In this document: positions 3,896 through 60,885 of the stretch, in pieces
Layout of the letters: every line of letters begins with the position of its first letter
How positions within the stretch are numbered: position 1 is the stretch's first letter
Source of the DNA: Singulisphaera sp. GP187
GTDB taxonomy: Bacteria > Planctomycetota > Planctomycetia > Gemmatales > Gemmataceae
NCBI GenBank assembly: GCA_945905925.1
Contig: CAMDQN010000011.1
Span: forward strand, 1 to 64,000
Reading direction: 5' to 3'
Length of the DNA: 64,000 nucleotides
The notes under the pieces: generated by a model
What the model was told of the DNA's origin: nothing
The model's input: only the letters and a program-made list of their open reading frames with translations
The model's database searches: none
Position numbers and translations under genes: made by a program

Positions 3896-3991
3896 AGAAC
3901 CCCTCCCCAACCCCTCCCCTAAGAAGGGAGGGGCTTCAGACTCCGGCTCCCCCTCCCTTCTTAGGGGAGGGGGTTGGGGGGAGAGGTTCTT
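3896..3991. repeat. Family A long palindrome
   Basis: Arms of about 42 nt (AGAACCCCTCCCCAACCCC and its complement) each contain the core CCCTAAGAAGGGAGGGG, with a ~12-nt loop. The repeat starts inside the nuoH stop codon and ends ~27 nt before the LRR start codon. It could fold into a very stable hairpin and act as a terminator or processing signal. Other copies lie at 15339, 42650 and 55156, with variants elsewhere. Confidence 0.9.
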
Positions 3992-11526: not shown

Positions 11527-11679
11527 GGCTGATATCCTCGTTTGTGATGTGTTGGTGTTGGGGTGCGTACACCTCAACGCCACTTGATGTATTATTTACT
11601 ATGTGCGATGTGAAGACGGATGTGTAACTTTGACGCGAATCGTGGTGCGGGCACACATCACAAAAGGACATTGTGGTTC

Positions 11680-11795
11680 TTGTAGGGTGGGACAAGGCTT
11701 TGCGCAGGCCCACCAGCGCTGAGCTACGGTCGCAAGCTTGATCGTTCTGGTATCGCCGTGGTGGGCCTGCGCAAAGCCTTGTCCCACCCTACAAG
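11680..11795. repeat. Family B inverted repeat (TGTAGGGTGGGACAAGGCTT)
   Basis: Two ~35-nt arms (TGTAGGGTGGGACAAGGCTT... and its complement ending ACCCTACA) are separated by ~45 nt. Copies of the same family occur at 56644 and 60799, and a single arm at 50311. It lies between two minus-strand genes, right after the sulfate-binding protein stop codon. Confidence 0.88.
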
Positions 11796-11812
11796 AGAGC
11801 GGCGCGGGCACA

Positions 11813-13620: not shown

Positions 13621-15144
13621 CTAGGTGGGGCGGCGTTTGTAGAAGGTGGCCGTTGGCGTCACCTTTATTACTTGCCATTGGGGGAACGTTGAGAACCACA
13701 CATCGAACGCCGTGCCGGTGCGCGTTAGCGCGAAGTCGAATCGCCCGTACTTCACTTGCCAGTCGTCGATCGCGTTGCCGGGTTCGTTTGACTTGCGAAC
13801 GAAGTCCACGAGCCACGGCCCGCCGGTCAGTTCGCAGCGGTCGTCCACGAACACCTTGTAGCCCGGTGCGTGATAGATCACGAACCCGCCGTCGATGTAC
13901 TCACCGTTAAAGAGTTGGTTCGGTTCGCCGGGTTTTGGCTCGTACTCCTTGAGTACATCCAGCACCTCCACGGGCCACAACTTCGGGTCGTGCTGTACCC
14001 AATTGGAACCGATGAGCGGAACTGGGACGCGTGCCATTTGAAGCGTGAGCGCGAGCAGCACTGCGATCGCGGCCGGCCACGCATGCGCCCACCACGGGCG
14101 CGATTCCGCGCTGCCCGGTTGGTACATGTCGGGCCGGTACGCCGCGAGCCACAGCGCCCATCGCGTGTGTTTCCACATCGCGGTGATCGTGACCAGCGTG
14201 ACGACCGCGAACAGCGATACGTGCCTGCACCGGCTGAACGCGAGCACCAGCCACACGAGCGGCAGCAACCACGAGACTCGCAGCGCGCTGCGTTTCACGC
14301 CATACAGGGTGAAGAGGTACAACGCGGCCAGCGCCAACACCGGCCACGCGTAGGGCGCGGTCACGTCGAGCGGGCGGTGTTCCGCGATGATCTCCCGCAG
14401 CTCCTTCGCGTCCATGATGACGAGCCACGTCTTCACCATGTCCGTGCCGTAGGGACTGGCGAGCGTACTCAGACCGCAACCGCACGCGACGAGCGCGAGC
14501 AAGCCGACATCGCGCCATGTCTTCAGCGGTGACGGGCGCTTCAACTTCCAGAAGATGACCCATCCGGCGAACGCGATGCAGATCGTTCCGATGCCGCCTA
14601 ACACGCCGCCGTGGATATTCGTCCACAGCGAGCACAGCGGGATCAGCCAGAACAGACGCTTTAACTTGGGCCGCGCAACGTCGGTGTCGGCGAGCAACAC
14701 CGCGACGACCGCCAGCGCCGCGAGCGTGAACAGGTGCGGGCGCACGTGGAAGTGTGAAGCGGTCGCGGCCAGTGACAACGCGATGACACCGCACACCAAG
14801 ATCGGGTGCAGCCCAGTGCGCAGTAGACGCACTGTGAGCCACGCGAACACTGCGGCAATCAGCGTCACCGCGCCGAGTAACTGCGTGTCGAAGCCGCCGG
14901 CGCGGTGCGCGACCGCCATCCCAACTTCGCCGAACCATTGATACGGCACCCACCACTGGCCCGCGAACGTGAACGTGTACGGGTCGGAGCGGACGAAGCC
15001 GTCCTTCAGGATGAGTTCTCCGGTCGTGGTATGCCAGAACGTGCCGGGGTCGCGGAAGAACGCGGAGCGCCCGGCACCGAGCAGGATCAGCCACACGAGA
15101 AGAAACGCTGCCGCCCCGGGGCCGAGCCATCGCGGGAACTTCAT
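13621..15144 (-). CDS. Polytopic membrane protein, possible GT-C type transferase
   Basis: A 507-residue membrane protein with about ten hydrophobic helices. A periplasm-like first loop carries FRDPGTFWHTTTGELIL and SDPYTFTFAGQWW, and a soluble C-terminal part of ~130 residues includes NGEYIDGGFVIYHAPGYKVF and VDDRCELTGG. The early acidic/aromatic loop and alternating membrane layout resemble GT-C glycosyltransferases, though I cannot point to a certain catalytic Asp. The start ATG overlaps the stop of the upstream gene by 4 nt (ATGA), so the two are translationally coupled and probably act in the same cell-surface glycan pathway. The product remains uncharacterised. Confidence 0.8.
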   Translation of the reverse strand: MKFPRWLGPGAAAFLLVWLILLGAGRSAFFRDPGTFWHTTTGELILKDGFVRSDPYTFTFAGQWWVPYQWFGEVGMAVAHRAGGFDTQLLGAVTLIAAVFAWLTVRLLRTGLHPILVCGVIALSLAATASHFHVRPHLFTLAALAVVAVLLADTDVARPKLKRLFWLIPLCSLWTNIHGGVLGGIGTICIAFAGWVIFWKLKRPSPLKTWRDVGLLALVACGCGLSTLASPYGTDMVKTWLVIMDAKELREIIAEHRPLDVTAPYAWPVLALAALYLFTLYGVKRSALRVSWLLPLVWLVLAFSRCRHVSLFAVVTLVTITAMWKHTRWALWLAAYRPDMYQPGSAESRPWWAHAWPAAIAVLLALTLQMARVPVPLIGSNWVQHDPKLWPVEVLDVLKEYEPKPGEPNQLFNGEYIDGGFVIYHAPGYKVFVDDRCELTGGPWLVDFVRKSNEPGNAIDDWQVKYGRFDFALTRTGTAFDVWFSTFPQWQVIKVTPTATFYKRRPT

Positions 15145-16427
15145 GCCGGCACCGCGACGGTTTCAGGCGAGCGGGGGTGGGAAGCAGGGGGAGCCCCCTG
15201 TTTCTGTTCCTTGCGGGCGTGCAGCGCGTGCAGCAGCAGCACGGCGGGCGACACCCACAGGAACCAGAACGACGTGAGGTGCAACACGTTCATCAGGAGA
15301 CAACCGAGGTTGATGGCGAGTAGCGCGAGGAAGAAAGAAGAACCTCTCCCCCCAACCCCCTCCCCTAAGAAGGGAGGGGGAGCCTGCATTACTCCCCCTC
15401 CCTTCTTAGGGGAGGGGGTTGGGGGGAGAGGTCTTCCCACCACCATCACAAACACCGCCGGCAGCAACAGTACCATGTCGAACGGCCACGCACCATACGG
15501 CGCGGTCACGAACGACACGAGTAGCAATAGCGGCAGTTGTGCCGCGTCGTTCCAGTCGTTTCGCTTGTGCCAGCGATACCACGCGAACCACACCAAGCCG
15601 AGCGCGACGGACACGAACTGCAACCGGAACAGCTCCGCGCCGAAAGTGAGGCGCAAGAGGCTGCCGAGCGTCGGCGAGAGCCACTGCGCCGGCGGGCGGT
15701 TACCCATCGCGTCCGCGTACTGGTGCCACACCTGTGGGTTGAACACCAGCGGCAGCAGTGAACACGCGACGCCCATTGCCGCACCGCCTACGAGCGCGCG
15801 CCAGCGTCCGCGAACGCCTGCGTCCACCGCGATGGCGACCCACAGCAGGTACGCGAGGTGCGGCTTGATCGCGAGCAACACGGTCGCGGCCCCGGCCCAG
15901 TATTCCCAGGTGCGGTTTACTAACGCGCGGCGCTCGCATTCAAGGAACAGCACCGCGCCGAGCAGCAGAAACGTGCTGATCTGGCCGATCGAGAGCGCGA
16001 ACACGGTTGGCAGGAACATGAACGCGACCGCCCACCCCACCCACCGGCGATTGCGCGCTCCGCCCAGCAAGTACCACAAGCGGTCCGCGCAGAAGCCGGT
16101 CACGACGAGGTGAACCAGCAGCCACAATAGTTGCGCCTCGCGCGCGGGGAGCAACCCGAGTGGCAGCACCGCGGGCAGCGCCCACGGCGGGTTCCACATC
16201 ATGATCGCTTCGTCCGTGTCGCGCCCGGCGTGCCGTTGCAGCGGCAACAGTAGCGCTTTGTCGAACGGGTTCTGACCGTTGAGCGTGAGTTTCGCGGCGG
16301 CCCAGTATTCAACGAAGTCGTCCGGGGGCCATACGGTCGGGTCGGCGAGCAGTTGCCGGACCTGTCCCGCGAGCAGAACCCCGACCACCGCCAGAACTGC
16401 GATTGAGAGTAGGTTGCGCGAAGTCAT
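15141..16427 (-). CDS. GT87/DUF2029-like membrane glycosyltransferase with an in-frame palindrome insert
   Basis: A 428-residue polytopic protein. DDFVEYWAAAKLTLNGQNPF near residue 35, followed by MMWNPPWALPAVLPLGLLP, matches the DUF2029/GT87 family of polyprenyl-phosphate-dependent mannosyltransferase-like enzymes, with the acidic pair in the first outer loop. About ten membrane helices follow. Residues ~331-363 (GRPLPPTPSPKKGGG... PPPFLGEGVGGRGSS) are entirely coded by a family A palindrome and interrupt the region between two helices. The last ~12 residues are coded by a family J repeat. The ATG at 16427 is chosen because the longer frame to 16517 runs through a terminator hairpin. Its stop overlaps the next gene's start by 4 nt. 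Confidence 0.85.
   Translation of the reverse strand: MTSRNLLSIAVLAVVGVLLAGQVRQLLADPTVWPPDDFVEYWAAAKLTLNGQNPFDKALLLPLQRHAGRDTDEAIMMWNPPWALPAVLPLGLLPAREAQLLWLLVHLVVTGFCADRLWYLLGGARNRRWVGWAVAFMFLPTVFALSIGQISTFLLLGAVLFLECERRALVNRTWEYWAGAATVLLAIKPHLAYLLWVAIAVDAGVRGRWRALVGGAAMGVACSLLPLVFNPQVWHQYADAMGNRPPAQWLSPTLGSLLRLTFGAELFRLQFVSVALGLVWFAWYRWHKRNDWNDAAQLPLLLLVSFVTAPYGAWPFDMVLLLPAVFVMVVGRPLPPTPSPKKGGGVMQAPPPFLGEGVGGRGSSFFLALLAINLGCLLMNVLHLTSFWFLWVSPAVLLLHALHARKEQKQGAPPASHPRSPETVAVPA
15166..15205. repeat. Family J repeat forming the 3' end of a gene
   Basis: CAGGCGAGCGGGGGTGGGAA and following GCAGGGGGAGCCCCCTG resemble the family J arm at 7972 with an internal insertion. It supplies the last dozen or so codons of the GT87-like gene. 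Confidence 0.6.
15339..15435. repeat. Family A long palindrome inside a coding sequence
   Basis: Two ~42-nt arms (AGAACCTCTCCCCCCAACCC..., core CCCTAAGAAGGGAGGG) surround a ~12-nt loop. The same element is intergenic at 3896, 42650 and 55156. Here it is translated in the one reading frame that has no stop codon. Confidence 0.95.
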
Positions 16428-16501: not shown

Positions 16502-16526
16502 CGTGATTGTGGTTCAAGCGGAAGGG

Positions 16527-33633: not shown

Positions 33634-33711
33634 CGAGCCTCCGCGGGTCGGGAGTGAACCGGTCGGGAGAACTGATGATACCCGCGAAGCGGAGATTGGA
33701 GCCAAAGAAAT

Positions 33712-33825
33712 CAGGGGCTTACGCCCTGGCTACGAACAGCCGCCCTTCCAGGGCTAAAACCGGAAACCGGCTCTTGGTCTTCGGCCCTGGAAGGGCGGCT
33801 GTTCGTAGCCAGGGCGTAAGCCCCT
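33712..33825. repeat. Family F inverted repeat, long perfect arms
   Basis: The arms of ~42 nt (CAGGGGCTTACGCCCTGGCT onward and its complement) are essentially perfect, with a ~30-nt centre containing GGAAACCGG. The element lies between two divergent genes, so it is not at a 3' end. It could form a hairpin in the 5' leader of either the DUF1501 gene or ppc. Confidence 0.92.
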
Positions 33826-33930
33826 GGTTCTTTGTTCCGCGTGCCGGCCGTGTGGTGTCGGGCCGGCGTTCCGGTAGAATCGCAGCGAATAGTGCCGGCT
33901 CTCACAACTCGATTTACCAACAGTGTGTCA

Positions 33931-42641: not shown

Positions 42642-42649
42642 GCAATTGT

Positions 42650-42757
42650 CGGAAAGAACCCCTCCCCAACCCCTCCCCTAAGAAGGGAGGGGCGAAGACA
42701 CCGAGAGGTTTTAGCCCCTCCCTTCTTAGGGGAGGGGTTGGGGAGGGGTTCTTTCCG
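42650..42757. repeat. Family A palindrome between convergent genes
   Basis: Perfect arms (CGGAAAGAACCCCTCCCCAA onward and complement) of ~44 nt flank a ~20-nt centre. It lies 8 nt after the SulP stop and 2 nt before the WD40 stop codon, as expected for a bidirectional terminator. Confidence 0.92.
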
Positions 42758-42759
42758 AC

Positions 42760-55155: not shown

Positions 55156-55287
55156 AGAACCCCTCCCCAACCCCTCCCCTAAGAAGGGCGGGGCTTCAAA
55201 CCAAAGACAAATCGAGCAGTGCGTTCTCTGGTGTTGGTTTTGCTCCCCCTTCCTTCTTAGGGAAGGGGGTTGGGGGGATAGGTTCTT
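55156..55287. repeat. Family A palindrome with enlarged centre
   Basis: The arms (AGAACCCCTCCCCAACCCCT and complement) match the family A consensus with a few changes (CCCTAAGAAGGGCGGGG). The centre is ~45 nt. Only 2 nt separate it from the HIT start codon side, so it lies in the divergent 5' region of both genes. Confidence 0.88.
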
Positions 55288-55631: not shown

Positions 55632-56639
55632 ATGCGGATCGCCCTCGATGCGATGGGCGGCGATCACGGTCCGGCCCCAAACGTCGGCGGCGCCGCTCTG
55701 GCGCTGACCGCGAACCCCGACTTGACCGTCGTTTTTGTCGGCGACCAGGCGCAACTCGAACCGTTGCTCGGCGCGGCTTCGTTGCCAGCCAGGCGGTTCG
55801 AGGTTGTTCACGCTGCGCAAGTCGTCGAAATGAAGGAGAAACCGGGCGAAGCGTTCCGCCGCAAGCCGGACGCGTCCGTGTTCCGCGCCTGGCAACTGCT
55901 GGCTCAGGGCAAGGTGGACGGTCTCGTCTCGGCGGGTAACACCGGGGCCGTCGTCGCCGGCGGGCTGATGTCGCGCCGGTTCCTCAAAGGCGTTCACCGG
56001 CCCGGCATCGCGACCGTCATGCCCAACGCGAAGGGTCGCTGCGTCATCATGGACGTGGGCGCGAACGTCTTCCCCAAACCACCGCACCTGCTCCAGTATG
56101 GCGTGATGGGCAGCGCGTTCGCTCGCCACATCTTGAACATCGAACGCCCCACGCTGGGCCTGATGAACGTGGGCGAAGAGGAAGGCAAGGGGCACGAACT
56201 CGTTCAGAAGACTTACGAGTTGTTCCGTGCCAGTCCGCTCAACGACCGCTTCGTGGGGAACATCGAGGGTCGCGACATTCACCGCGGCACGGTCGATGTG
56301 GTCGTCACCGACGGGTTCACCGGCAACGTGGTGTTGAAGCTCAGTGAGGGCGTGCTCGAATTCGTGCTGGGAGTCGTCAACCAGGAAGTGATCGGCACGC
56401 TCCAGGTCGAGCGCGAGCAGGCCCAACTCGCGATGAAGGGCGTGGTCGCGAAGTACCACTACAGCGCCGTGGGTGGGGCGCCGCTTCTGGGCGTCGAGGG
56501 CGTGTGCATCATCTGTCACGGTTCGTCGAAGGACCAGGCCATCGCCGGCGCACTCGCGGTCGCGGCGATCAACGTGCGCGTGAAACTCAACGAGAAGATC
56601 GTCGCCGAACTCGACGCGCTGCCCAACAGCGATGAGTGA
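55632..56639 (+). CDS. plsX: Phosphate acyltransferase
   Basis: A 335-residue PlsX, which converts acyl-ACP to acyl-phosphate for phospholipid synthesis. MRIALDAMGGDHGPAPNVGG is the family start. VSAGNTGAVVAGGLMSRRFL, CVIMDVGANVFPKPPHLLQY, NVGEEEGKGHELVQKTYELF and VTDGFTGNVVLKLSEGV are conserved blocks. Length is usual. It sits directly after rpmF and before fabD, but a family B inverted repeat fills the gap after its stop codon. Confidence 0.97.
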   Translation: MRIALDAMGGDHGPAPNVGGAALALTANPDLTVVFVGDQAQLEPLLGAASLPARRFEVVHAAQVVEMKEKPGEAFRRKPDASVFRAWQLLAQGKVDGLVSAGNTGAVVAGGLMSRRFLKGVHRPGIATVMPNAKGRCVIMDVGANVFPKPPHLLQYGVMGSAFARHILNIERPTLGLMNVGEEEGKGHELVQKTYELFRASPLNDRFVGNIEGRDIHRGTVDVVVTDGFTGNVVLKLSEGVLEFVLGVVNQEVIGTLQVEREQAQLAMKGVVAKYHYSAVGGAPLLGVEGVCIICHGSSKDQAIAGALAVAAINVRVKLNEKIVAELDALPNSDE

Positions 56640-56643
56640 GTTT

Positions 56644-56726
56644 TGTAGGGTGGGTCAAGGCTTTGCGCAGGCCCACCATTCTTCGCATCGTTGGTGGGCC
56701 CGCGCAAAGCCTTGACCCACCCTACA
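56644..56726. repeat. Family B inverted repeat between plsX and fabD
   Basis: TGTAGGGTGGGTCAAGGCTT (continuing TGCGCAGGCCCACC) and the complement form a ~33-bp stem with a short ~12-nt loop. It lies inside the fatty-acid gene order, 4 nt after plsX and 11 nt before fabD. Confidence 0.92.
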
Positions 56727-56737
56727 GAAGACACTCC

Positions 56738-59460: not shown

Positions 59461-59589
59461 AAGAAGAGTAGCCGCACGAAAAACGCAGAAGAAAGACACG
59501 ACCAGAGAAAACAGAATGCAGTGCTTGAAAACACTCTTTCTCTTCTCTGGTCGTGTCTTTCTTCTGCGTTTTTCGTGCGGCTATTCTTC
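59461..59589. repeat. Family H inverted repeat with very long arms
   Basis: AAGAAGAGTAGCCGCACGAA (continuing to ACCAGAGAA) is mirrored over ~48 nt by the sequence ending GTGCGGCTATTCTTCT, with a ~30-nt centre. It lies between fabF and the ThiF-rhodanese gene, 6 nt past the fabF stop. It is the longest perfect-arm element in the window and reads as the terminator of the fab operon. Confidence 0.93.
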
Positions 59590-59610
59590 TGTCTTTTCTG
59601 AGGTCGCGTG

Positions 59611-60798
59611 ATGCCGCTTCCCGATTTGCTTGGTGGCCGGTGGGCCGACGTGTCGCTCACGCAGCCCGAGTTCGCTCGCTACTCGCGGCACATCATCATG
59701 CCGGAGGTCGGCCTCGACGGGCAGCGCAAGCTCAAGGCCGCGAAGGTACTCGTCATCGGCACCGGCGGCCTCGGTTCGCCGCTCGCGCTGTACCTCGCGG
59801 CGGCCGGTGTGGGCACGCTCGGACTCGTAGACTTCGACATCGTGGACACGTCGAACCTTCAGCGGCAGATCATTCACGGCACCGCGGACGTGGGCCGCTC
59901 GAAGTGCCAGTCCGCCGCGGACCGGCTTCGCGACGTGAACCCCGAAGTCGCGCTCGACCTGTGGGAGACGCAGTTCACGTCGAAGAACGCGCTCGACATC
60001 GTGAAGCGATACGACATCGTCGTGGACGGCACCGATAACTTCCCGACGCGATATCTCGTCAACGACGCGTGCGTGCTGCTGAGTAAGCCCAACGTCTATG
60101 GGAGCATCTTCCGGTTCGACGGTCAGGCGACGGTGTTCGATCCGCGTGTGGGGCCGTGTTACCGGTGTCTGTACCCGGAACCGCCACCGCCGGGCGAGGT
60201 GCCGAGTTGCGCCGAAGGCGGTGTGCTGGGCATCCTTCCGGGCGTGATCGGTTGCATTCAGGCGACGGAAACGATCAAGCTCATCCTCGGTATCGGCGAA
60301 CCGCTCATCGGTCGGTTGCTGCACTACGACGCGCTCAACATGACCTTCAAGACGTTCAAGATTCGGCGCGACCCGAAGTGGGCCGTCGGTGCGCCGCACC
60401 CGACCATCAAGGGACTCATCGACTACGAGGAGTTCTGCGGGGTGCGCGGCGGCCCGACGCCGCTCGCGGCTTCGCCGAGCGCGAGCGACATCACGCCGGA
60501 GCAACTCAAGAAGCGCATCGACGCAGGCGAGAACCTGTTCGTCCTCGATGTGCGGAACCCGAACGAGTTCCAGATTTGCCGCATCCCGGGGACGGTGCTG
60601 CTGCCGCTCCCGGAGTTGCCAGCGCGCTTCGCTGAAGTACCAAAGGACCGCGAGGTGATTGTCCACTGCAAGAGCGGAATGCGCAGCGCGAAGGCGATCG
60701 AGTTTCTGAAGGCGCAAGGCTACACGAAGCTCGTGAACCTGACCGGCGGCATCCTCGGCTGGGCCGACAAGGTGGACACGGGGATGCCCAAGTATTGA
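59611..60798 (+). CDS. ThiF/MoeB-type adenylyltransferase fused to a rhodanese domain
   Basis: A 395-residue fusion. Residues ~20-260 are an E1-like adenylyltransferase: RYSRHIIMPEVGLDGQRKLK, VLVIGTGGLGSPLALYLAAA for ATP, VDFDIVDTSNLQRQIIHGTA, DGTDNFPTRYLVNDACVLLS, and zinc cysteines in CYRCLYPEPPPP. Residues ~290-395 are a rhodanese (DVRNPNEFQICRIPG) with its active Cys in VHCKSGMRSAKAI. This MoeZ/Uba4-like fusion adenylates and thiolates a sulfur-carrier protein for molybdopterin, thiamine or thionucleotides. Its carrier is not in the window. The ATG at 59611 directly follows a GTG at 59608 that could also start. Confidence 0.93.
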   Translation: MPLPDLLGGRWADVSLTQPEFARYSRHIIMPEVGLDGQRKLKAAKVLVIGTGGLGSPLALYLAAAGVGTLGLVDFDIVDTSNLQRQIIHGTADVGRSKCQSAADRLRDVNPEVALDLWETQFTSKNALDIVKRYDIVVDGTDNFPTRYLVNDACVLLSKPNVYGSIFRFDGQATVFDPRVGPCYRCLYPEPPPPGEVPSCAEGGVLGILPGVIGCIQATETIKLILGIGEPLIGRLLHYDALNMTFKTFKIRRDPKWAVGAPHPTIKGLIDYEEFCGVRGGPTPLAASPSASDITPEQLKKRIDAGENLFVLDVRNPNEFQICRIPGTVLLPLPELPARFAEVPKDREVIVHCKSGMRSAKAIEFLKAQGYTKLVNLTGGILGWADKVDTGMPKY

Positions 60799-60882
60799 TT
60801 TGTAGGGTGGGCACCGCCCACCACGCTTCGCGTCTCGCTTGAGTGCGGCGCAAAGCATGGTGGGCAGTGCCCACCCTACAAA
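60799..60882. repeat. Family B inverted repeat between convergent genes
   Basis: TTTGTAGGGTGGGCACCGCC (continuing CACCA) and the complement form a ~24-bp stem with a ~33-nt centre (GCTTCGCGTCTCGCTTGAGT). It lies between the stop codons of the ThiF-rhodanese and MFS genes, 1 and 4 nt away. Confidence 0.9.
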
Positions 60883-60885
60883 ACA

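Follow-up and report, generated by a model that had tools for sequence, protein, structure and literature searches.

A dispersed family of paired-hairpin palindromes with in-frame copies in conserved genes of a Gemmata-group planctomycete

Rickettsia palindromic elements (RPEs) are palindromes of ~100-150 bp that occur between genes and in frame in conserved protein genes (Ogata et al. 2000; PMC3767692, PMC2229807), and different RPE groups (RPE-4, RPE-6 and RPE-7) are found at the same locus in orthologues (PMC3767692). Intragenic GTAG/CGTC REPs and REP dimers have been described in several species as in-frame inverted hairpin dimers; the host is often a repair gene, uvrA among them, and two Xanthomonas species have different REPs near the same recB site (PMC3733652). 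REPINs lie almost entirely outside genes and are linked to a RAYT (PMC3116915). In-frame mobile palindromes are best known in the obligate intracellular Rickettsia and Wolbachia, where they are easily explained by weak selection; among free-living bacteria, some are known to have tagged intragenic REPs.

The palindrome family described here, family A, comes from the 6.47-Mb draft genome (G000; 251 contigs, 96.6% complete) of a member of a Gemmata-group genus. Like the RPEs, it is a dispersed palindromic repeat that has both intergenic copies and copies in frame inside conserved genes, with empty sites in some orthologues. Unlike the RPEs, to which no sequence relation was noticed (without a formal comparison), it resides in a free-living planctomycete with a large GC-rich genome, has the anatomy of a REP doublet, and shares its sites across species at most of the 22 sites compared. 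It differs from the GTAG/CGTC REPs in that no GTAG or CGTC is seen at the hairpin base, no RAYT was found adjoining it, and coding copies make up about a third of the sample. Two inverted REP-like hairpins, a variable spacer and the lack of a visible target duplication are shared with REPINs (PMC3116915); unlike in REPINs, about one third of sampled paired copies lie inside genes, and no RAYT was found flanking family A, the hairpin-flanked RAYTs of the genus having other families. The mitochondria of Nematomorpha also have long perfect palindromes inside protein-coding genes, but these are mitochondrial and the abstract of that report does not describe a dispersed mobile family (PMC6649704). 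We consider family A a new, untagged family of a known kind in a new lineage, notable for its extent and its turnover at conserved sites. An earlier note, made from sequence alone, had likened the element to RPEs and suggested an undescribed Gemmata family. The likeness is supported, and no earlier Gemmata report was found in the open-access literature searched, most subscription papers and preprints lying outside that search; the note missed the intragenic REP dimers (PMC3733652) and the different palindromes at the same protein sites in related species.

The window is the whole 64,000-nt stretch of DNA that was analysed. At 15342-15432 it contains two 41-nt arms, 100% complementary with 9 nt between them, inside a glycosyltransferase gene. 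The features are as follows (the repeat features carry no strand).

15144..16427, minus strand: GT87-like membrane glycosyltransferase gene with the in-frame insert (ATG at 16427; ORF listed from TTG at 16517)
15342..15382: left arm, A1 type, ACCTCTCCCCCCAACCCCCTCCCCTAAGAAGGGAGGGGGAG
15383..15391: unpaired centre, 9 nt here; its length and sequence vary among other copies
15392..15432: right arm, the exact reverse complement of the left
15356..15380: small hairpin of the left arm, REP-like unit 1 (9 bp stem, 7-nt loop)
15394..15418: corresponding mirror-image hairpin of the right arm, REP-like unit 2; its position is inferred from the symmetry with unit 1
3902..3981: family-A copy without coding sequence on both sides
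42648..42759: family-A copy with A2/A2 arms, intergenic
55162..55277: family-A copy with mixed arm types, intergenic or at a gene edge

The minus-strand ORF matches Pfam GT87 (E = 1.4e-20, residues 80-309) and translates the palindrome as GRPLPPTPSPKKGGGVMQAPPPFLGEGVGGRGS, C-terminal to the Pfam match and outside it. The insert is predicted to lie between two membrane helices; an AlphaFold2 model (alignment of 17 sequences) places it as a low-confidence coil (pLDDT ~45) between helices 315-330 and 363-381. The claim that the palindrome (41-nt arms, 9-nt centre) stands in frame in this gene without a stop or frameshift held, and the further copies reported near 3896, 42650 and 55156 are real, none with coding sequence on both sides. 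That only one sense frame is open was borne out for the GT87 copy, while across the family two left-arm frames are in use. Folded as RNA, the whole element is a single stem (-103 kcal/mol, z = -12 against dinucleotide shuffles). The internal hairpin of the left arm is CCCCCTCCC-CTAAGAA-GGGAGGGGG; the isolated right arm, folded on the plus strand, gives a slightly different hairpin. The right arm mirrors the hairpin of the left, so that the element amounts to two REP-like units in inverted orientation. No Rfam family matched the element above its gathering score, the sub-threshold microRNA matches reflecting only a long hairpin, and the insert peptide had no match in a plasmid collection.

Family A is far more frequent than chance would allow: the 6.47-Mb genome contains 198 occurrences of the half-site CCCTAAGAAGGGNNGGG and none of a reversed-pattern control. 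Scaling from sampled copies gives about 134 elements in this genome. Five other members of the genus have 92, 52, 6, 4 and 3 exact half-sites, and the exact half-site is absent from every other genus among the 59 relatives searched. Our catalogue is a sample, comprising 84 of an estimated 134 copies, 74 of them paired; most sampled regions (contigs up to C50) came from the exact-pattern list, and about 10 on later contigs came from similarity searches, partly at the protein level, which may enrich coding copies. Among the 84, the arms fall into three interchangeable types (A1, A2 and A3) and the spacers differ in length and sequence. As in a REPIN, each copy pairs two inverted hairpin units of ~45 nt, and conservation stops at GAAG-AACC, the arm ends being GAAG..AACCT. 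An assembly artefact, raised earlier as a possible refutation, is ruled out as a general explanation by the 74 paired copies with distinct spacers, and is also countered by similar in-frame inserts in complete single-contig genomes.

A codon-usage model trained on long ORFs of the fetched DNA was used to score the flanks of the 74 paired copies. Strong coding on both flanks of one strand was found for 23 copies; in 21 the two flanks share a frame that is open through the element, none has a shared frame with a stop, and two have a shifted frame. With a looser cut-off, 25 of the 74 are in frame inside genes; about two thirds of the sampled paired copies are not. The left arm is read as EEPLPPTPSPKKGGG in 18 coding copies and as KNLSPQPPPLRREGE in seven, and the third frame, which contains TAA, is used by none. 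Since an average copy has just 2.1-2.2 of its six frames open, the observed in-frame pattern reflects selection on survivors. The reading frame through coding copies is selected, as the earlier note had supposed.

Pfam matches were obtained for 23 of the 25 host ORFs; site 5 and site 20, which we take to be DUF4139-like, gave none at E <= 1e-6. The hosts include GT87, an FAD oxidase, CobW, a chalcone synthase, a cysteine desulfurase-type Aminotran_5, an Amino_oxidase (taken to be HpnE-like), two PMT_2 glycosyltransferases, UvrA, QueG, RecO, a P-type ATPase, an SMUBP-2-like helicase, a methyltransferase, two PSD1/PSCyt proteins, UbiD, an E2 acyltransferase, ADH, SMC, a ketosynthase, a CheA-like kinase and an ABC ATPase. 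Pfam matches split at or spanning the insert include PSD1, SMC_hinge, QueG_DUF1730, Aminotran_5, UbiD and ketoacyl-synt. Compared with solved UvrA, the host protein aligns in two parts, one ending and the other beginning at residue 627, and the insert separates them. The chalcone synthase aligns on either side of an insert placed between its N- and C-terminal domains, and in the IscS-type cysteine desulfurase, which likewise aligns on both sides, the insert replaces a loop. Two PSD1/PSCyt2 paralogues (L121 and L133) carry an insert at the same homologous position (FQNPSPTPPL..), possibly a paralogous hotspot or the outcome of duplication after insertion. Two palindrome copies in a row also occur in frame in one CheA-like kinase ORF of 1232 aa (L151:2490-2740, contig C50).

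The same sites were then read in congeneric genomes. Public relatives with the GT87 gene include Gemmata sp. IIL30 and metagenome assemblies of Gemmataceae or Planctomycetota. Another 21 coding copies were followed with flank-only queries in G003, G012 and G007, and partly in G009, G016 and G001, by reading the DNA that separates the flanks. Across the 22 sites compared, the congeners mostly carry an insert too, usually of another palindrome type and up to 318 nt long, and a few sites are empty (3-15 nt). With G009 excluded for gaps and frame-shifts at several sites, 60 of the 63 inserts of 45 nt or more in five genomes are multiples of three, and those 60 contain no stop in 2763 gene-frame codons, as against 92 and 99 stops in the other two sense frames. 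In the G009 draft itself, inserts at L202, L208, L210, L227 and L231 have runs of N or a frame shift, through assembly error or real gene damage. Of the same-site inserts, 43/71 passed a palindrome test against dinucleotide shuffles (p < 0.05); among the roughly 40% that failed, some may be decayed or ordinary variable linkers.

These counts bear on two alternative explanations. The first takes the elements for ordinary REPs outside genes, or for terminators, and holds that frames through them arise by chance or from mispredicted genes. The two thirds of sampled copies outside coding frames speak for it, as do the long spurious ORFs that arise in high-GC genomes. It is all but excluded, being contradicted already by the lack of in-frame stops, by conserved domains or homology on both sides of inserts and by matching inserts in complete genomes. 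The second holds that inserts (for example the insert peptide GGGVMQAPPPFLGEGVGGR) are absent from the protein, through excision of the hairpin after transcription or ribosome bypass. The extremely stable RNA hairpin could indeed stall or divert ribosomes, but removal or bypass would not select for lengths divisible by three and freedom from stops, both of which are observed, and we regard this reading as very unlikely.

The linker of the GT87 gene illustrates the variety at a single site. Other palindrome types occupy it in the orthologues of G012, G003 and G006. In G015 (L074) it has a left arm of family A and, nested in the spacer or beside that arm, a second palindrome, the whole being in frame. 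In G002 (L081) it contains an unrelated RAYT-type in-frame palindrome, TGTGGTGCGCTCGCTCCGCGAGCGG, which resembles a hairpin adjoining a Y1_Tnp gene in G006 (L246), suggesting that RAYT-type hairpins may also insert in frame. The site is empty in G009 and G007, which have only the short unrelated linker KR[SA]ERGIGSP; the refuting case anticipated earlier, in which orthologues lacking the repeat would have the same residues, is not met. In the GT87 tree the filled G012 is sister to the empty G007 and G009, indicating at least one recent gain or loss at this site. The queG site of G001 (L324) is filled by an in-frame GAATTC-rich palindrome unrelated to family A (GAGTGCGGAATTCGGAATTC..). Empty sites were also found in the Amino_oxidase gene of G012 (9 nt), in a GT39-like gene (3 nt) and the site-5 gene (9 nt) of G003, and at the DUF4139-like site of G012 and G007 (15 nt). 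The palindrome types of the relatives are abundant in their own genomes: in G007, G009 and G012, one core has 33-47 exact matches per genome and another has 30-56. Several sites have layered inserts, as at site 1, where a common NPSPTPPLNGEG half lies beside different neighbours.

Whether the inserts at a site are inherited or replaced was judged by ranking each insert against those of another species. The true orthologue ranked top in only 3/14 cases for G000 and G003 and 2/18 for G000 and G007; site 0 was not judged, its segments having been crudely cut. The main rival, which remains possible, is concerted evolution, in which each site received one ancestral palindrome and gene conversion within each species later homogenised the copies. 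In its favour, arm types are very uniform within a genome and some same-site copies are clearly orthologous, with a common spacer and arms: the uvrA inserts of G000, G012 and G007, which have the same CCCTAAAAAGGAAGG arm, and the E2-gene inserts of G000 and G003. Against it stand the poor ranking of true orthologues at most sites, the unrelated palindromes at some (GT87 in G002, queG in G001) and the existence of empty sites. As the sole cause it was rejected, same-site copies being mostly not each other's closest relatives. The simplest account, an inference, is repeated insertion into, and loss from, insert-tolerant sites. A bolder reading, which could as readily prove wrong as right, is that specific positions in conserved Gemmata housekeeping proteins (UvrA, RecO, QueG, the SMC hinge and others) have long served as landing sites, the position being inherited across species while its palindrome is repeatedly replaced by the active family of the lineage, including unrelated ones. 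If so, mobile DNA would keep rewriting a fixed protein loop.

The family, its two-unit anatomy, its in-frame open state in many conserved genes, the empty sites and the different palindromes at the same sites are shown by the sequences. To account for them, we propose that family A is probably a non-autonomous, REPIN-like mobile palindrome whose coding copies survive only if their frame is open and they lie at a tolerant loop or linker, where they are translated; translation is inferred, with no evidence at the protein level. The element consists of a variable spacer between two REP-like hairpin units in inverted orientation and would be moved non-autonomously, putatively by a transposase acting in trans. 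A copy landing in a gene would persist only with an open frame at such a loop or linker, and translation of a surviving insert would yield about 30-50 residues, rich in Pro and Gly and probably disordered, which may stay in the mature protein and be close to neutral. An occupied site may be refilled, since inserting into an existing insert or losing a hairpin would do little harm.

No mobiliser was identified. In G000 and eight congeners, family-A arms were found beside none of 33 Y1_Tnp loci (three in its own genome and 30 in relatives), and the complete genome G007, although rich in related palindromes, has no Y1_Tnp match. A RAYT as the mobiliser was rejected, as several of these Y1_Tnp genes have flanking hairpin families and none of the families is family A. 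The source genome has two such RAYT-like genes, L101 (contig C29) and L102 (contig C99), each flanked by its own hairpin family, TTAGCCGCAAGCCG..GGCGAGCGCGCCAC and CCCCTGCGGGTCGAACGCTAAACGGCGCAC, respectively. No offset or length of target-site duplication stood clearly above shuffled pairs (n=61), and flank palindromicity was not significant. In sampled loci the arms pair over at most ~111 nt and never enclose a gene-sized insert, and no autonomous parent was found. The copies could alternatively be MITEs of a classical DD(E/D)-type insertion sequence, with the arms as terminal repeats. Terminal inverted repeats around a variable centre fit this reading, but the lack of a fixed target-site duplication and of any arm pair flanking a gene-sized insert in the sampled loci makes it unlikely.

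Such a scale of in-frame palindromes in free-living planctomycetes with large genomes challenges an explanation by small populations. Different palindromes at the same sites in sister species offer natural replicate experiments in the passage of mobile DNA into protein. Annotators should also be aware that the UvrA, RecO, QueG and SMC proteins of this genus would, if translated as inferred, carry tens of repeat-derived residues.

The window contains further palindromes besides family A. Another family (TTGTAGGGTGGG..CCCACCA), with arms of 38-45 nt, occurs at 11678-11796, 56634-56736 and 60796-60885, and two long inverted repeats unrelated to family A, with 48- and 46-nt arms that are 98% complementary, lie at 59462-59590 and 33709-33829.
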